In this document: one piece after another, positions 9,208 through 50,161 of the stretch
How the letters are laid out: each line of letters begins with the position of its first letter
Position numbering within the stretch: position 1 is the stretch's first letter
Assembly: GCF_010501095.1 (NCBI RefSeq)
Contig: NZ_QVMP01000005.1
Coordinates: forward strand, 62,001-126,000
DNA from: Dysgonomonas sp. 520
Lineage (GTDB): Bacteria; Bacteroidota; Bacteroidia; Bacteroidales; Dysgonomonadaceae
Reading direction: 5' to 3'
Length of the DNA: 64,000 nucleotides
Notes under the pieces: generated by a model
What the model was told of the DNA's origin: nothing
What the model saw: only the letters and a program-made list of their open reading frames with translations
The model's database searches: none
Position numbers and translations under genes: made by a program

Positions 9208-10707
9208 ATGTTTGACAACGAAAACAGGCTTTTTATAGCAATCAATCAAGATAGTGAAATCTGTCTGAACCCTAAAATGGCTAACCGCCATGGACTTATA
9301 ACCGGAGCTACGGGAACCGGAAAAACTGTAACTTTACAAAATTTAGCCGAAACGTTCAGTTCGATGGGTGTGCCCGTCTTTGCAGCCGACATAAAAGGAG
9401 ACTTGTCGGGCGTGGCAAACAAGGGAGGCAACAAGGAAAGTGTTACCAAGCGTGTCGATTCTTACGGGTTGACGGAAAAAGGTTTTGTTTTTCAGGGTTT
9501 TCCTGTTCAGTTGTGGGATGTGTTTAAGGAACAAGGTGTACCCATCAGGGCAACTATCGCCGATATGGGACCTTTGCTGTTGAGCCGTCTGCTTTCGTTG
9601 AACGATACACAAAGTGCCGTATTGACCATTATTTTCAAAATATCGAAAGATGAAAATCTGGAATTGATAGACTTGAAAGATTTGCAGAAAATATTGGAAT
9701 ATGTAGGAAATAACACCAACAGTTTCACTACCAATTACGGAAATATATCCGCTGCCAGCATTGGTGCAATTCAACGGGGATTGTTGCAATTGGAGCATGA
9801 TGGAGCAGATTTGTTTTTCGGAGAACCTTCCCTCAATTTGGACGACCTGATTCAAACCAGCGGAAACAAAGGAGTGATTAACATTATCGCTGCCGATAAG
9901 TTGATGAACTCGCCTAAGATATACTCGACATTCCTGCTTTGGCTGATGACAAAACTTTTCGAAACTCTGCCCGAAATAGGAGATCCCGATAAGCCGAAGT
10001 TGGTTTTCTTTTTCGATGAGGCTCACCTCTTGTTTAGCGATGCTCCAAAGGCTTTGGTCGACAAAATTGAACAAGTGGTCAGGCTGATCCGCTCGAAGGG
10101 TGTCGGTATCTATTTCATATCGCAAAGTCCGTCTGATATTCCTGATAATGTATTGGCTCAGCTGGGTAACCGTATCCAGCATGCGTTGAGGGCATACACT
10201 CCGAAAGATCAGAAAGCATTGAAAGCGGCAGCTCAAAGTTTCAGGGCAAACCCTAAATTCGACACGGAAACAGCTATCTCGGAACTGGGAACAGGTGAGG
10301 CTTTAATCTCGTTTCTGGATGAGAAAGGCGCACCTCAACCTGTTGAAAGAGCTTATGTCCTTCCTCCTGAGGGGCAAATTGGACCGATAACACCCGAAGA
10401 AAGAAAGTCATTGGTCGATGGTTCTGTCTTGAACAGATTTTATGCGCAAGATGTGGATAGGGAATCGGCATACGAGAAATTGACAGAAAAATTGAACTCG
10501 ATACAGGCTGAAAAAGATGCCGCAGAGCAGGCAAAAGCTGACGAGAAAGCTAAAAAAGAAGAGGAAAAGGCTCGTCAGGCACAGGAAAAGGCCGATCAGC
10601 AGTCGAAAAAACAACGAAACAGAATGTTAACAACATTGGCTACAACTATCTTGGTTCCTGTGGCAAAGCAATTGATAAGCTCGTTTTTCGGAAAGAAAAA
10701 GAAATAA
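9208..10707 (+). CDS. HerA/YjgR-like ATPase (DUF853 family)
   Basis: A 499-residue P-loop ATPase of the HerA-FtsK superfamily, in the helicase-HerA-like C-terminal (DUF853) group. Walker A is GATGTGKT (residues 33-40). Walker B is [11 protein letters not shown] near residue 268. A conserved sensor region [19 protein letters not shown] follows. The C-terminal 80 residues are a Lys/Glu/Ala coiled coil ending in a hydrophobic, basic tail, so the protein may associate with the membrane. The role of the family is poorly known; a DNA-related motor is likely. It has a strong promoter and a family A repeat after its stop. Confidence 0.9.
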
Positions 10708-31209: not shown

Positions 31210-31213
31210 GTCG

Positions 31214-31278
31214 CATGGGATTTGCAATCCCATGTTTGGCTACTATCCGGATTTTTGTTCCGGGGTTACAAACCCCGG
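31214..31278. repeat. Triple-palindrome repeat (copy 3, reversed)
   Basis: The three palindromes occur in reverse order compared with copies 1 and 2: the ATGGGATT type at 31214-31234, the CCGG type from 31247, and CCGGGGTTACAAACCCCGG at 31260-31278. Confidence 0.8.
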
Positions 31279-31336
31279 AGAACAAGGAAAGATGCGATTC
31301 TCGTATCTTAAATATATTTAATGGCTGATAGATTTA

Positions 31337-32140
31337 CTAATCCTGAATTTTTATAGCTGTGATGTTGTCTTCAAGCCAAAGGCCTTGCCCTATTCTTCCA
31401 AACTCGAAAGCTGGAGCGGTAGTCAGTTTATTGACATTTCCAACTATAAATGTATATGTTTTATTCGCATTCGTAGCATTGTTAAGAACAACAGAACCAA
31501 CCGCTGTATTGTAAAGTCCATATCCTACACCTGCAACCAGCCTATTATTACCTTCAAAATCAGAAGTATAAGTGGCGGTAGTTACCGGCATTCTTGTTCC
31601 CATAGGGACGATGCCATCCGTGAATGAGGATCGAATCCAATAAGGAGAGGTCATAGGATTTGTAATTGGATATTTATGTGCTACAAGAAATGCTACTTGT
31701 ACAAGCCATCTTCCCGAAGGCAAGGTTAAGGTCGTCCCTGTACTGAGGAAGAACTGTGTGGTTGTATCTGCTATAACAAAAGTTGAATCTCCATTCCAAA
31801 CAGCATTAACTGTTTGTATTCCATGAGACCGCCATTTGGCATTACCACTTGCATCAGAAGTAAGTACCCGTCCATCGGCTTGCGATCCATCCTGCAAGCG
31901 GAAGCCACCACCTTGGGTGCTGCTTCTGATATCCACCTTTGTCTGAGGATTGTTCGTCCCAACTCCGACTCTGCCTTGAGCATCCACCACCACATCGTCT
32001 GCAACATTTGTGTTTCCGCTCGTGTTGCGTGCCGCATCAATATGAAATACTCCCTGAGGCGATTCCGTGTTCACTCCCACCTGTGCTTTGAGTGCCGTAA
32101 CGGCTAAAAAAATCAATAAAATTAAACTGCTCTTTTTCAT
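31337..32140 (-). CDS. Exported surface protein, paralog of the protein at 47925-48827
   Basis: A 267-residue exported protein. After the signal peptide (MKKSSLILLIFLAVTALKAQ) comes VGVNTESPQGVFHIDA, then two more GVGTNNPQTKVDIRSS-type repeats and GFRLQDGSQADGRVLTSDAS. This is the fibre-stalk-like pattern found in Bacteroidetes surface proteins. The C-terminal half is a beta-rich globular domain that differs completely from its paralog. Its 60-nt leader shares GTTGTTTGTTGTGTTAA with the leader of the paralog. It is divergent from an AraC gene bracketed by inverted repeats and is probably controlled by it. Function unknown; surface exposure is inferred. Confidence 0.75.
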   Translation of the reverse strand: MKKSSLILLIFLAVTALKAQVGVNTESPQGVFHIDAARNTSGNTNVADDVVVDAQGRVGVGTNNPQTKVDIRSSTQGGGFRLQDGSQADGRVLTSDASGNAKWRSHGIQTVNAVWNGDSTFVIADTTTQFFLSTGTTLTLPSGRWLVQVAFLVAHKYPITNPMTSPYWIRSSFTDGIVPMGTRMPVTTATYTSDFEGNNRLVAGVGYGLYNTAVGSVVLNNATNANKTYTFIVGNVNKLTTAPAFEFGRIGQGLWLEDNITAIKIQD

Positions 32141-32193: not shown

Positions 32194-32217
32194 ATCTGTC
32201 ACTGGGTAAGTGACGGA
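32194..32217 (+). repeat. Left inverted repeat of AraC module 1
   Basis: 24 bp containing the palindrome GTCACTGGGTAAGTGAC. Its exact reverse complement is at 33302-33325, and 1084 bp including the AraC gene lie between. Confidence 0.95.
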
Positions 32218-32474
32218 GGAAGCTAATGCTTGGTGGGAAGTTCTTTATATTCAGAGGTTTAATTAATCGCGGAAAGGCAATAGTACAACCCGGTAAGTAA
32301 TTTGTTAAACGTGTGTTATCCGTCGAGGGGATAAAATGCTTTATTTCCCCAGTAACATACTGATGGATAATTGTTTACGTATGACTGATACGCGAATTGG
32401 AAAAACTGATAAAAATAAGGCTTGTGTGTTTTTAGTTAAACACGCTGATTTTTTAATACTTAAACAACTTTATA

Positions 32475-33320
32475 ATGATCAAAGCTGATAATGACAAACC
32501 AATTGTTTTCTTGGATTTGGAGCAAGGAAAAGAGTGGTGTTTTCCCTCAGGAGAAAACAAGATAATATTGGTCGCACAAGGAAAGGTATGTTGTAATTCT
32601 TCGGGGATTGAAATTCCCTCTTCTAAAATGGCGTTTTATTCTTTTAGAGATGAAGTCTCCCTAACGACGGAAGATGAGTCTAACATAGTTCTGATACGAT
32701 TTGCAAACCGGTCGGGACTCTGCGATATTCTTTCGCCTCTTTTTCGTAGCATAGGGACGACTGCCGACAACTACACCGTTCTGCCCGTAAAGAGCGTTGT
32801 AAATAACTTTCTGCAAACAGTCAAGGTATATCAGGACAGCAGAATTAACGATAGCTATCTGGACGATTTGAAGCTAAGGGAATTCGGGTACATACTTAGG
32901 AGTTTTTATCCTGAAACTGTATTGCAAAACTTTTTCAAGTTCTTGCCCAATCAAGACATGGTGTTCATCGAACAGGTAGGCATACATTCGCGCAACATTC
33001 GCTCCGTCAGGCAATTGGCGCAAGTAATGAATTACAGTTATTCGGGGTTCAATAAACGATTCCGAAGAGCTTTTGGAATGTCGGCATACACTTGGATGAA
33101 AGATAATAAGGCAAAACAAGTGTTCAGGGATATTTGCCTGACAAGTATGAGTTTGAAACAGATAAGCACCAGCCACAAGTTTGCCACCTTGTCTCACTTC
33201 AATGAGTTTTGCCATAGAAATCTGGGGTCTTCTCCTTCGCAGATAAGACGAAAAAACAAGGAGTTTAATCGTGTAGAATTACGCCCCTTGAAACAACAAA
33301 ATCCGTCACTTACCCAGTGA
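32475..33320 (+). CDS. AraC-family regulator inside an inverted-repeat-bounded segment (module 1)
   Basis: A 281-residue regulator. The first 150 residues are a sensor-like domain without a recognised ligand motif. The C-terminal AraC HTH domain runs from about 165, with VRQLAQVMNYSYSGFNKRFRRAFGMSAYTWM as the first helix-turn-helix and LKQISTSHKFATLSHFNEFC as the second. It is a clear paralog of the regulator at 48961-49776. The last codons (..SLTQ stop) lie inside the right inverted repeat, so the coding end would stay intact if the segment flipped. It probably regulates the adjacent exported protein. Confidence 0.9.
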   Translation: MIKADNDKPIVFLDLEQGKEWCFPSGENKIILVAQGKVCCNSSGIEIPSSKMAFYSFRDEVSLTTEDESNIVLIRFANRSGLCDILSPLFRSIGTTADNYTVLPVKSVVNNFLQTVKVYQDSRINDSYLDDLKLREFGYILRSFYPETVLQNFFKFLPNQDMVFIEQVGIHSRNIRSVRQLAQVMNYSYSGFNKRFRRAFGMSAYTWMKDNKAKQVFRDICLTSMSLKQISTSHKFATLSHFNEFCHRNLGSSPSQIRRKNKEFNRVELRPLKQQNPSLTQ

Positions 33321-33325
33321 CAGAT
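33302..33325 (-). repeat. Right inverted repeat of AraC module 1
   Basis: Exact inverted copy of 32194-32217. It contains the AraC stop codon (33318-33320). Confidence 0.95.
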
Positions 33326-33409
33326 TTTAGTTAACTCCTTTATTTTATGATACAAAGGTACTCAAATATTTTACTTGTACAACTCTTTCAAAAATATTTT
33401 CAACACCCT

Positions 33410-47525: not shown

Positions 47526-47723
47526 TAATGCGAATCAGTAGTTAAAACAGGTTGGTTTAAATTGTACAATATTTTCGCCCCTACTTTCGGGCAGAGCAGA
47601 GCCCTGCCCCTACAAAATGCACCCTTCCACCCTGTCGTTATATGGGATTTGCAATCCCATGCTTGGGTGCTATCCGGATTTTGAATCCGGAAAATAATAA
47701 CTCTGGGGTTACAAACCCCAGAG
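47526..47723. repeat. Intergenic repeat mosaic (copy 4)
   Basis: It starts with AATGCGAATCAGTAGTT (47526-47542), then a GGGCAG/CTGCCCC hairpin. The three palindromes follow at 47642-47660, 47674-47690 and 47701-47723, in the reversed order seen in copy 3. Nothing credible is encoded from 47500 to 47924. Confidence 0.8.
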
Positions 47724-47924: not shown

Positions 47925-48827
47925 TTAATTAATTTTCACGAAAGAGCCACCTGTACACTGTATACAGATATCATTCCCATCACCGATTTCGAATGTGAGA
48001 TAATTGTCGTTTCCAGCCGGGAAAGTGCTCCCACTTTTAGTCAAAATGTAAATTGCTAAATACCCTTCCAGCCCTGTGGATGCATCTACCGTTATATTTT
48101 GACTGAAGTAGAACCTGAAATTGCCATAGTAGGGTCTTGGATCTGTTCCTCCGTTCGTAGCATAAACCTCATACGCTCCTTTAAATCGGGTTGCAGCACC
48201 CCATAGGTCAATATCGTTACCCGGTAATAGTTGAATACAAGCTCTTTCTATTATGTTTCTGATTGAGCTCACTGCACTGACCCTTACGCCTAATGTCACA
48301 GAATACGTTCCGTATGCAGGAAAAGTTATTTTATGTCCGGTCATAAAGGTCGCACTTGTTTCCTCTGCCGGAAGAGGGCCTATCTTTGTATTTCTAAAAA
48401 ATGGGATTTGCGTAAACTCACTGAATCCGGGTTGCTCCCAGGTTGCAATTCCATTGGCATTGGATGTTAGTACTTTCCCCGAAGCTTGATTTCCGTCTAC
48501 CAATCTGAAACCTTTGGTTGGAGAAGAGGAAGTTCCTCCCGTTCTGATATCAAGTTTATATGCCGGAGACGAGTTTCCTATGCCAACATAACCGCTTGTG
48601 TATGAATTTCCTGCCACATGCAACTTTTGAGAGGGGCTATTTGTGCCTATCCCGACATTTCCCTGAGAGTTAACTATCACATCATCGCTCACGTTCGTGT
48701 TACCACTCGTATTCTTTTGAGCATCAACATGAAACACTCCCTGTGGGGTTTCCGTATTCACTCCTACCTGGGCTATCAGCGCCGATGGCATAAAAAACAT
48801 TAATAAAATTAAAAAATCCTTTTTCAT
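47925..48827 (-). CDS. Exported surface protein, paralog of the protein at 31337-32140
   Basis: A 300-residue exported protein with signal MKKDFLILLMFFMPSALIAQ, then VGVNTETPQGVFHVDA and a chain of G-N-V-G-I-G-T-N-S-P-type repeats (QGNVGIGTNSPSQKLHV, YVGIGNSSPAYKLDI). GFRLVDGNQASGKVLTSNA follows, and then a beta-rich C-terminal domain unrelated to that of the paralog. The stalk-like N-terminus shared by the pair with different ends suggests interchangeable surface tips. It lies directly downstream of, and on the same strand as, its AraC gene. Function unknown. Confidence 0.75.
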   Translation of the reverse strand: MKKDFLILLMFFMPSALIAQVGVNTETPQGVFHVDAQKNTSGNTNVSDDVIVNSQGNVGIGTNSPSQKLHVAGNSYTSGYVGIGNSSPAYKLDIRTGGTSSSPTKGFRLVDGNQASGKVLTSNANGIATWEQPGFSEFTQIPFFRNTKIGPLPAEETSATFMTGHKITFPAYGTYSVTLGVRVSAVSSIRNIIERACIQLLPGNDIDLWGAATRFKGAYEVYATNGGTDPRPYYGNFRFYFSQNITVDASTGLEGYLAIYILTKSGSTFPAGNDNYLTFEIGDGNDICIQCTGGSFVKIN

Positions 48828-48922: not shown

Positions 48923-48945
48923 CCCTCTGTCACTTGGTAAGTGAC
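48923..48945 (+). repeat. Left inverted repeat of AraC module 2
   Basis: 23 bp containing GTCACTTGGTAAGTGAC, exactly inverted at 50011-50033. Here the palindrome extends to 29 bp (48923-48951). It sits 95 bases upstream of the exported gene's start. Confidence 0.95.
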
Positions 48946-48960
48946 AGAGGGGTTTGTTTT

Positions 48961-49776
48961 TCAGGAACTTTGCTCCATATATCTTTGCTTTCTGATCTGG
49001 CGTGGCGACCCACCCAATACCTTATGACAAAATTCATTAAAATGAGACAAAGTCATGAATTTGTTATCCGCAGAAATTTGCTTTAAACTCTTATTGGTTT
49101 CATAAATTTCGTGATAAACTATCCTTGCCCGTTGCTGTTTCATCCATTTGTATGCAGACATACCAAATACTCTCCTGAACCGCTTATTGAAACCTGAATA
49201 GCTGTAATTCATCCTCTCGGACAATTGCCGCACGGTCCGTATTTCTGCCGAATATTTCCTCACTTGTTCCGAAAACAACAAGTCGTTAGTTTGATATAGC
49301 CTGAAAAAATCATGAAGTTCCTGCTTTGTGTAACAGACATTCATAATGCAGCCTAATTCCTTTATTTTCAACTGCATCAAATTGCAATCCCTGTATCCTT
49401 TCTGCAAATAGAGTTCTATGGAATAGACATAACTACCCAACATATCTTTCACATCCAGAAAAGATATTCCATCATCCACATCTTGCGACAGTTGATTGTT
49501 ACCGACCGCAATCGCCCTGCACCAATCATATTCTTCCGTTATGTTAAAGAAAATGACAGCAGCATCTTCCATTGCCATCGCCCTAAAACCATATCCGGAT
49601 GGAACGAAAAGCATTTTACCGCAATCCATCTCAACATTATTGTACATGGAAAAGGAGAATTCAATTGATCCTTTCGTCACCAATACTATTTTACTATTGT
49701 CCTTGTCCGTTGTGTACAATTTGCCTCTGTCTAAAGCAATTGCTTCCACAATGCCGTTATCTGTAAAATTCATCAT
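48961..49776 (-). CDS. AraC-family regulator inside an inverted-repeat-bounded segment (module 2)
   Basis: A 271-residue paralog of the regulator at 32475-33320. The C-terminal HTH domain has VRQLSERMNYSYSGFNKRFRRVFGMSAYKWM and LKQISADNKFMTLSHFNEFC, nearly identical to module 1. The sensor half is more divergent. The start context ACTTAAACAA is shared with module 1. Unlike in module 1, the gene reads towards its exported partner. Its stop lies 15 bases from the left repeat. It is likely to control the adjacent exported protein. Confidence 0.9.
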   Translation of the reverse strand: MMNFTDNGIVEAIALDRGKLYTTDKDNSKIVLVTKGSIEFSFSMYNNVEMDCGKMLFVPSGYGFRAMAMEDAAVIFFNITEEYDWCRAIAVGNNQLSQDVDDGISFLDVKDMLGSYVYSIELYLQKGYRDCNLMQLKIKELGCIMNVCYTKQELHDFFRLYQTNDLLFSEQVRKYSAEIRTVRQLSERMNYSYSGFNKRFRRVFGMSAYKWMKQQRARIVYHEIYETNKSLKQISADNKFMTLSHFNEFCHKVLGGSPRQIRKQRYMEQSS

Positions 49777-50010
49777 TTTGTATTGTTTAAGTCTCTGTAT
49801 AATAGCTTGTTTAACGTATGTTTTACATCATTTTCCTAGTCGTGTTTCATCATTAACCAGAATATCAACACCTTATCACATTTCAATAGAAATCATTTTA
49901 TCATAAATCTCTCAAAAGTTGCACAAATGTTTATCAATGCCTTATAGCGCAATAGATAGGCTATTAAACCATTAATAATAAACACAATACAAACCTTAAA
50001 ATATAGTTCC

Positions 50011-50033
50011 GTCACTTACCAAGTGACAGAGGG
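50011..50033 (-). repeat. Right inverted repeat of AraC module 2
   Basis: Exact inverse of 48923-48945, 1065 bp away, upstream of the AraC start. Confidence 0.95.
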
Positions 50034-50161
50034 GTGTAATCATTCATAATTAAAGTACAGATATACACAAATTTATTTTCCTGCAAATATTTCGTGAAGA
50101 AAATACTTTTTTTAGTTGAGAACCACCACTGGATTGAACTAATTAACCGCTTAAAAAGTAT

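Follow-up and report, generated by a model that had tools for sequence, protein, structure and literature searches.

The AraC cassettes in the window

The window, meaning the whole stretch of 64,000 nucleotides from Dysgonomonas sp. 520 that was analysed, contains two cassettes of similar build, here called modules 1 and 2, each with an AraC-family regulator gene between two inverted sites and a gene for an exported, putatively fibre-like protein beside it. The features of module 1 are as follows.

31337–32140, minus strand: exported, putatively fibre-like protein, 267 aa, with a signal peptide, a conserved stalk-like N half and a variable C half
32194–32217, plus strand: left inverted repeat, the AraC 5' site; core at 32198–32214, GTCACT-GGGTA-AGTGAC
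32475–33320, plus strand: AraC-family regulator, 281 aa, Pfam HTH_18, within the invertible segment
33302–33325, minus strand: right inverted repeat, the AraC 3' site; core at 33305–33321; contains the AraC stop codon
33297–33329, minus strand: predicted intrinsic terminator formed from the right repeat, TAAAATCTGTCACT-GGGTA-AGTGACGGATTTTG, acting on transcripts that enter from outside
33353–33360, minus strand: putative -7 box of an outside promoter (P_out), TACCTTTG, 39 bp outside the right site and directed into the module

The original prediction, made from the letters of the window alone, described perfect 24-bp inverted repeats, and the two 24-mers are indeed exact reverse complements (24/24 bp), 1084 bp apart. 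Its statement that each contains a palindrome holds for the 6-bp arms, GTCACT and AGTGAC, but not for the 5-bp centre, GGGTA, which is asymmetric, so the palindrome is interrupted rather than full. The regulator carries the C-terminal helix-turn-helix of the AraC/XylS family (PF12833, E 2.5e-14), and its gene is divergent from the exported gene, as had been noted. Because its stop codon sits within the 24 identical bases of the right copy, inversion would leave the protein unaltered, again as anticipated. The 17-base core occurs at 32198–32214 (plus) and 33305–33321 (minus), with a one-mismatch pair at 48929–48945 and 50011–50027; dinucleotide shuffles of the window gave a mean of 0.10 matches, and none of 100 shuffles reached four. 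A TTG lies at 33382–33380, 19 bp upstream of the -7 box of P_out. The terminator hairpin has a stem of 14 bp (-17.8 kcal/mol, z -6.6), followed by a T tract that falls short of those of most modules and is too weak to be scored as one. In the assembly, module 1 itself is present in one orientation only.

The one-mismatch pair bounds module 2 (48929–50027).

47925–48827, minus strand: exported, putatively fibre-like protein, 300 aa
48922–48962, plus strand: predicted terminator hairpin, CCCTCTGTCACTTGGTAAGTGACAGAGGGG followed by TTTGTTTTT (-24.2 kcal/mol, z -6.3)
48929–48945, plus strand: AraC 3' site core, GTCACTTGGTAAGTGAC, adjoining the exported gene, the reverse of the layout of module 1
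48961–49776, minus strand: AraC-family regulator, 271 aa, co-directional with the exported gene and thus in the opposite orientation to module 1
50011–50027, minus strand: AraC 5' site core
50058–50065, minus strand: putative -7 box of P_out, TATATCTG, found by eye outside the AraC 5' site and reading into AraC

Relative to both flanks, the AraC gene of module 2 is turned round, and in this orientation the terminator hairpin lies outside the path of P_out. The box TATATCTG has one mismatch to TAnnTTTG; the strict match that the script returned, at 48 nt, is another box. Separately, an intergenic hairpin repeat (ATGGGATTTGCAATCCCAT ... GGGGTTACAAACCCC) occurs in at least two places in the window, 31212–31285 and 47640–47720, downstream of exported or other genes.

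The exported proteins are conserved in one half only: across 26 of them, median identity is 61% in the N half and 14% in the C half. A fold model of the module 1 protein has a jelly-roll C domain at residues 105–267 that resembles TNF/C1q-like heads, phage fibre heads and TNF-like lectins, with a middling overall confidence (pLDDT 70) and a best Z of 9.6, little above the noise guide of the comparison tool. Pfam returned no family for either exported protein of the window, and NCBIfam none for that of module 1; PHROGs gave weak tail-fibre matches. A fibre-like adhesin is a reasonable guess from the model. In other Dysgonomonas, the corresponding operons include a FISUMP-domain protein (L122) and a below-cut-off match to Mfa1-type fimbriae (L223).

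A genome-wide family of modules

A genome search for the repeat core, which the original prediction had proposed as a check, shows that these cassettes belong to a large family. In the whole genome (3.91 Mb, 68 contigs) there are 75 exact GTCACT-N5-AGTGAC sites against 0 for a reversed control pattern; a tolerance of one mismatch raises these counts to 85 and 3. There are likewise 45 AraC paralogues at E up to 1e-12, mostly near full length and divergent from one another (30% identity in the sensor half). We catalogued 38 intact AraC modules plus one site pair without AraC, so that 38 of 39 site pairs enclose an AraC gene. The count is a minimum: a probable 39th with a one-mismatch 5' site (L051) stands outside it, as do L204, which has one clear site, L035 and L046, which are cut by contig ends, and L205 and L206, whose AraC genes are broken. 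The consensus site is TCY-GTCACT-N5-AGTGAC-RGA, and modules measure about 1.05–1.2 kb.

The two ends of a module match. An identical core is found at both ends in 36 of 38 modules, compared with a mean of 3.3 and a maximum of 10 in 2000 shuffled pairings, even though 16 different N5 centres are in use; some modules share both their centre and a near-identical length, among them four with the centre TTAGC. The modules with unequal ends are L027 and the first module of L044, which adjoins a tandem copy bearing the other centre. At this locus (L044:3152-8069, G000:C22), where a module and its exported genes occur twice in tandem, the first copy has the centres TGTAG and TGGTA, as though one end had recombined with the neighbour.

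The position of the exported gene is also nearly constant. In 34 of 38 modules it adjoins the AraC 5' side and is directed away from the module; in two, L027 and module 2, it is on the 3' side (two were not called). L027 and module 2 are also the modules reversed relative to both conserved flanks. The sites of L027 differ between ends and from the consensus, so this module could be locked. The L027 module and its exported genes lie between near-identical small ORFs in direct orientation, 5.4 kb apart (L119:3766-4224 and 9226-9684, G000:C6). Elsewhere, at L204:3157-5256 (G000:C5), an AraC gene is co-directional with the exported gene and has a single clear site beside it; this may be a module that has decayed and become locked in the orientation of module 2. 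The site pair without AraC, L049:3698-4108 (G000:C54), bounds a 394-bp element with an outside promoter, an inward terminator and an exported gene beyond; it is perhaps a minimal switch.

A putative outside promoter and terminator

A strict TAnnTTTG box, which we take to be the Bacteroidetes-type -7 consensus, lies outside the AraC 3' site and points inward in 35 of 38 modules, and outside the 5' site in two. The latter are exactly the two modules whose exported gene is on the 3' side: box and exported gene change sides together, indicating that the flanks are constant and the cassette turns. Spacing is similarly fixed, with 38–40 nt between box and site in 36 of the 37 modules that have a strict box on either side; only 14 of the 37 have a TTG 17–22 nt upstream of the box. 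At the other element of the arrangement, a T tract follows just inside the 3' site in 34 of 38 modules, as against 4 of 38 at the 5' site, and three 3'-site hairpins fold at -17.8 to -24.2 kcal/mol (z -6.3 to -6.9). To judge from sequence, hairpin and T tract likely form a terminator for transcripts from P_out, with the repeat itself as the stem.

Relatives and evidence for inversion

Among 61 genomes searched for exact sites, only this genome has many, and G019 has one pair. With one mismatch allowed, 101 genomes of the family yielded 43 sites in G066 (7 for the control), 8 in G067 (0 for the control) and single pairs in G019, G061, G065 and G068. The module of G019 adjoins a 429-aa tyrosine recombinase. 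Scanning a species-genome collection with this enzyme and its homologue in our genome as queries returned 79 recombinase loci, of which eight have AraC relatives above 40 bits; in each of these eight, one AraC relative sits between inverted palindromic repeats, directly past the recombinase. In Dysgonomonas, Butyricimonas and Parabacteroides the order is recombinase, site, AraC, site, exported operon; in Alistipes (L130) the exported operon is less clear.

Together with the loci of G061, G065, G068 and G066, these eight make a set of 12 modules in relatives. Their centres are identical in 12 of 12; eleven have the orientation of module 1 (hereafter A) and one, L215, that of module 2 (B), in the same genome as two A modules, L122 and L126. 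Nine of the 12 have a strict P_out and one an inward T tract, and the terminator logic is thus mostly particular to the Dysgonomonas sp. 520 genome.

The most direct evidence comes from G067, where a 384-bp site-to-site stretch is exactly reverse-complemented between contigs C5 and C7, in both cases with an identical 37-bp flank on one and the same side. Copies of this flank are confined to C5:15-51, C5:436-472 and C7:42318-42354. The element has no AraC gene and carries a promoter-like box inside; we read its assembly in both directions as both orientations among the reads, a duplicated locus being less likely. The overlaps between contig ends of our own genome consist only of repeats at exported-gene starts and end-of-contig overlaps, and hold no orientation evidence. 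As a separate observation, at L221:52-2355 (G067:C5) the recombinase gene itself has a 367-bp invertible element upstream that contains a promoter-like box, and this recombinase may switch its own expression.

Taken together, the matched ends (36/38), the two reversed modules of 38, the opposite module among the 12 of relatives, the element assembled both ways and the recombinase adjoining relatives' modules support the original prediction that the segment is invertible. A single orientation in all relatives would have spoken against it, and for the module family both orientations are found. That the modules are invertible segments is well supported, and inversion itself is all but certain. 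Not part of the original prediction were the scale of about forty modules, the putative outside promoter, the inward terminator and the opposite orientation of module 2 to module 1.

A candidate invertase

The original prediction proposed a search for a nearby recombinase. A tyrosine recombinase does stand beside relatives' modules, but in our genome the corresponding enzyme, P0001, has no module directly beside it; it lies 6 kb from module L027. P0001 is a 423-aa tyrosine recombinase encoded by one gene (G000:C6:55264-56535) next to what is by appearance thyA, with arm-binding, SAM-like and catalytic domains (PF00589 Phage_integrase, PF13102 and PF17293; the NCBIfam Xer matches are all below cut-off). 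Recombinase matches in the genome number 28 of the tyrosine and 11 of the serine type. Within this genome P0001 is the only close relative of the module-adjacent enzyme of G019, at 45% identity over the full length (next best about 30%).

Across Bacteroidales, P0001-related enzymes also adjoin palindromic site pairs of two other arm types, TCTCTT/AAGAGA and TCTTCT/AGAAGA. In a tree of 44 of 70 enzymes, with distant ones thinned and site labels assigned by hand, a branch supported at 100/99 separates 16 GTCAC-site rows, P0001 and three unlabelled enzymes from 15 TCTCTT, five TCTTCT and four unlabelled ones. By this tree the site arms follow the recombinase clade, and P0001 falls in the GTCAC-site clade; it is the probable invertase acting in trans on the modules.

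Two other candidates were set aside. Short tyrosine recombinases of 195 aa (L064, near module L054; L057 and L061) were dropped because the G019 module adjoins a 429-aa enzyme instead and the 195-aa copies of relatives stand in contexts that resemble mobile elements. One of them is a stand-alone gene (L064:1453-2040, G000:C68) of a family found otherwise beside element-like genes, with a 75% identical copy in G056, a genome of another family. The recombinase beside module L030 is by resemblance XerD, and its adjacency is probably coincidence.

The proposed switch and its alternatives

We consider it likely that each module is a site-specific DNA-inversion switch with P0001 as its invertase, in which P_out is terminated in orientation A and reads AraC and the exported gene in orientation B. 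Two inverted sites bound the AraC gene, between P_out and the gene for the fibre-like surface protein, and a P0001-family tyrosine recombinase would invert this cassette in trans, the N5 centre probably being the strand-exchange overlap that has to match. Orientation A is that of module 1 and 35 others: AraC is antisense to P_out, the promoter-side site and its internal T tract would form a terminator, and transcription from P_out would end about 40 nt on. Orientation B is that of module 2 and L027: the terminator faces away from P_out, whose single transcript could take in AraC followed by the exported gene. B would then be the ON state and A silent or AraC-dependent, with P_out and the terminator presumed functional from sequence, and inversion would probably turn the adjoining surface protein on or off. 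Both B modules of our genome are imperfect: L027 has mismatched sites and module 2 a mismatched -7 box. The broader reading, that one trans-acting recombinase runs about 40 independent switches, each flipping a regulator and a polar terminator with the site as stem, that the varied N5 centres serve as an address code confining recombination to one module and that few of about 40 fibre proteins, alike in their stalks but not in their tips, are displayed at once, is to our minds an even bet.

A possible but distinctly less probable alternative is that the cassettes invert with the logic reversed: A would be the working state, in which AraC binds operators within the module and so activates the divergent exported gene, B would part operator from gene, and the terminator would shield AraC from antisense transcription. 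AAACA-N-AAACA direct repeats, which resemble AraC operators, occur inside the 5' end of 23 of 38 modules (shuffle mean 0.3), where orientation A puts them beside the exported gene, and so A could be an AraC-dependent ON state; the divergent layout, in 34 of 38, is classical for AraC, and A is the commoner state. However, this leaves no role for P_out at its fixed spacing of 38–40 nt, and few modules have a strict TAnnTTTG box directed at the exported gene (5/38 inside the module, 2/38 in the 80 nt outside), although AraC-dependent promoters may need no good box.

It is very improbable, and largely refuted, that the repeats are bidirectional terminators or AraC operators kept alike by co-evolution with the regulator, with no recombination at all. 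The 3' site is a good terminator and AraC lies between the sites in all pairs but one, as that would have it, but the same sites bound AraC-less elements (394 bp at L049, 343–493 bp in G066 and G067), two modules stand the other way round between their flanks, one element is assembled both ways, the arms track the recombinase clade and the 5' site has no T tract in 34 of 38 modules. Still less credible, and disfavoured, is a transposable element that multiplied by copying, with the sites as its terminal inverted repeats and AraC carried along as a passenger: the many copies with conserved ends, some of equal centre and near-identical length, would fit, but the AraC paralogues are divergent, each module is fixed between P_out and the exported gene, no transposase lies inside the modules, and whole-locus duplication, as in the tandem copy at L044, explains the copies more easily.

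Comparison with known systems

The inversion switch that we favour resembles, in its transcriptional layout, cwpV of Clostridioides difficile. According to the available part of that report (PMC2784873), the promoter lies outside the segment inverted by RecV, and an intrinsic terminator arises at the promoter-side repeat when the segment is in the OFF orientation; the recombinase is a tyrosine recombinase, the cargo a surface protein, the DNA mostly in the OFF orientation, and the segment is described as having neither promoter nor ORF. The modules share the outside promoter and, at the sequence level, a promoter-side-repeat terminator in one orientation only (P_out in 35 and a 3'-site T tract in 34 of the 38), as well as a probable tyrosine recombinase and surface cargo. 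Unlike cwpV, they enclose a complete AraC gene, use the recombination site as the terminator stem and number about 40; an ORF-free segment is seen only in the 394-bp element at L049.

In Bacteroides fragilis, Tsr19/BF2766 and Tsr0667 (tyrosine) and Mpi (serine) are master invertases that act on distant loci with cell-surface cargo, 13 regions being given for Mpi and 12 for Tsr0667, where it is mostly a promoter that is inverted (available parts of PMC4747536 and PMC12632263). One probable master invertase acting on distant loci, surface cargo, a Bacteroidales host, inverted repeats and a local copy beside the recombinase are likenesses. By contrast, the promoter here stays outside, a strict box lying outside one site in 37 of 38 modules, and what turns round, in at least 38 modules, is a regulator gene with a terminator; a layout with the promoter inside occurs in G067. 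Also comparable are the short invertible elements beside P0001-family recombinases of Bacteroides, Prevotella and Parabacteroides, which have a homologous recombinase and, just downstream, paired palindromic sites with an asymmetric centre. Those differ in their arms (TCTCTT/AAGAGA or TCTTCT/AGAAGA), mostly about 150–300 bp apart, and their loci contain no AraC relative above 40 bits.

By the features compared, then, the modules are an inverton, but neither the usual Bacteroides promoter inverton, because the promoter is outside, nor an exact cwpV switch, because the segment carries a gene. Among literature titles and abstracts, a body from which the subscription literature is mostly missing, we found no AraC-bearing invertible segment, and the word AraC does not appear in the main texts of PMC11892184, PMC5903667 and PMC4747536. 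If our reading is true, one bacterium combines about 40 on/off switches for surface fibres with unlike tips, more than the 12–13 regions per invertase given in the available accounts of B. fragilis. The matched yet varied N5 centres would then be a natural experiment on how recombinase overlaps keep switches independent, and the use of one sequence as both recombination site and terminator stem would be a compact, testable design coupling DNA inversion to transcription.
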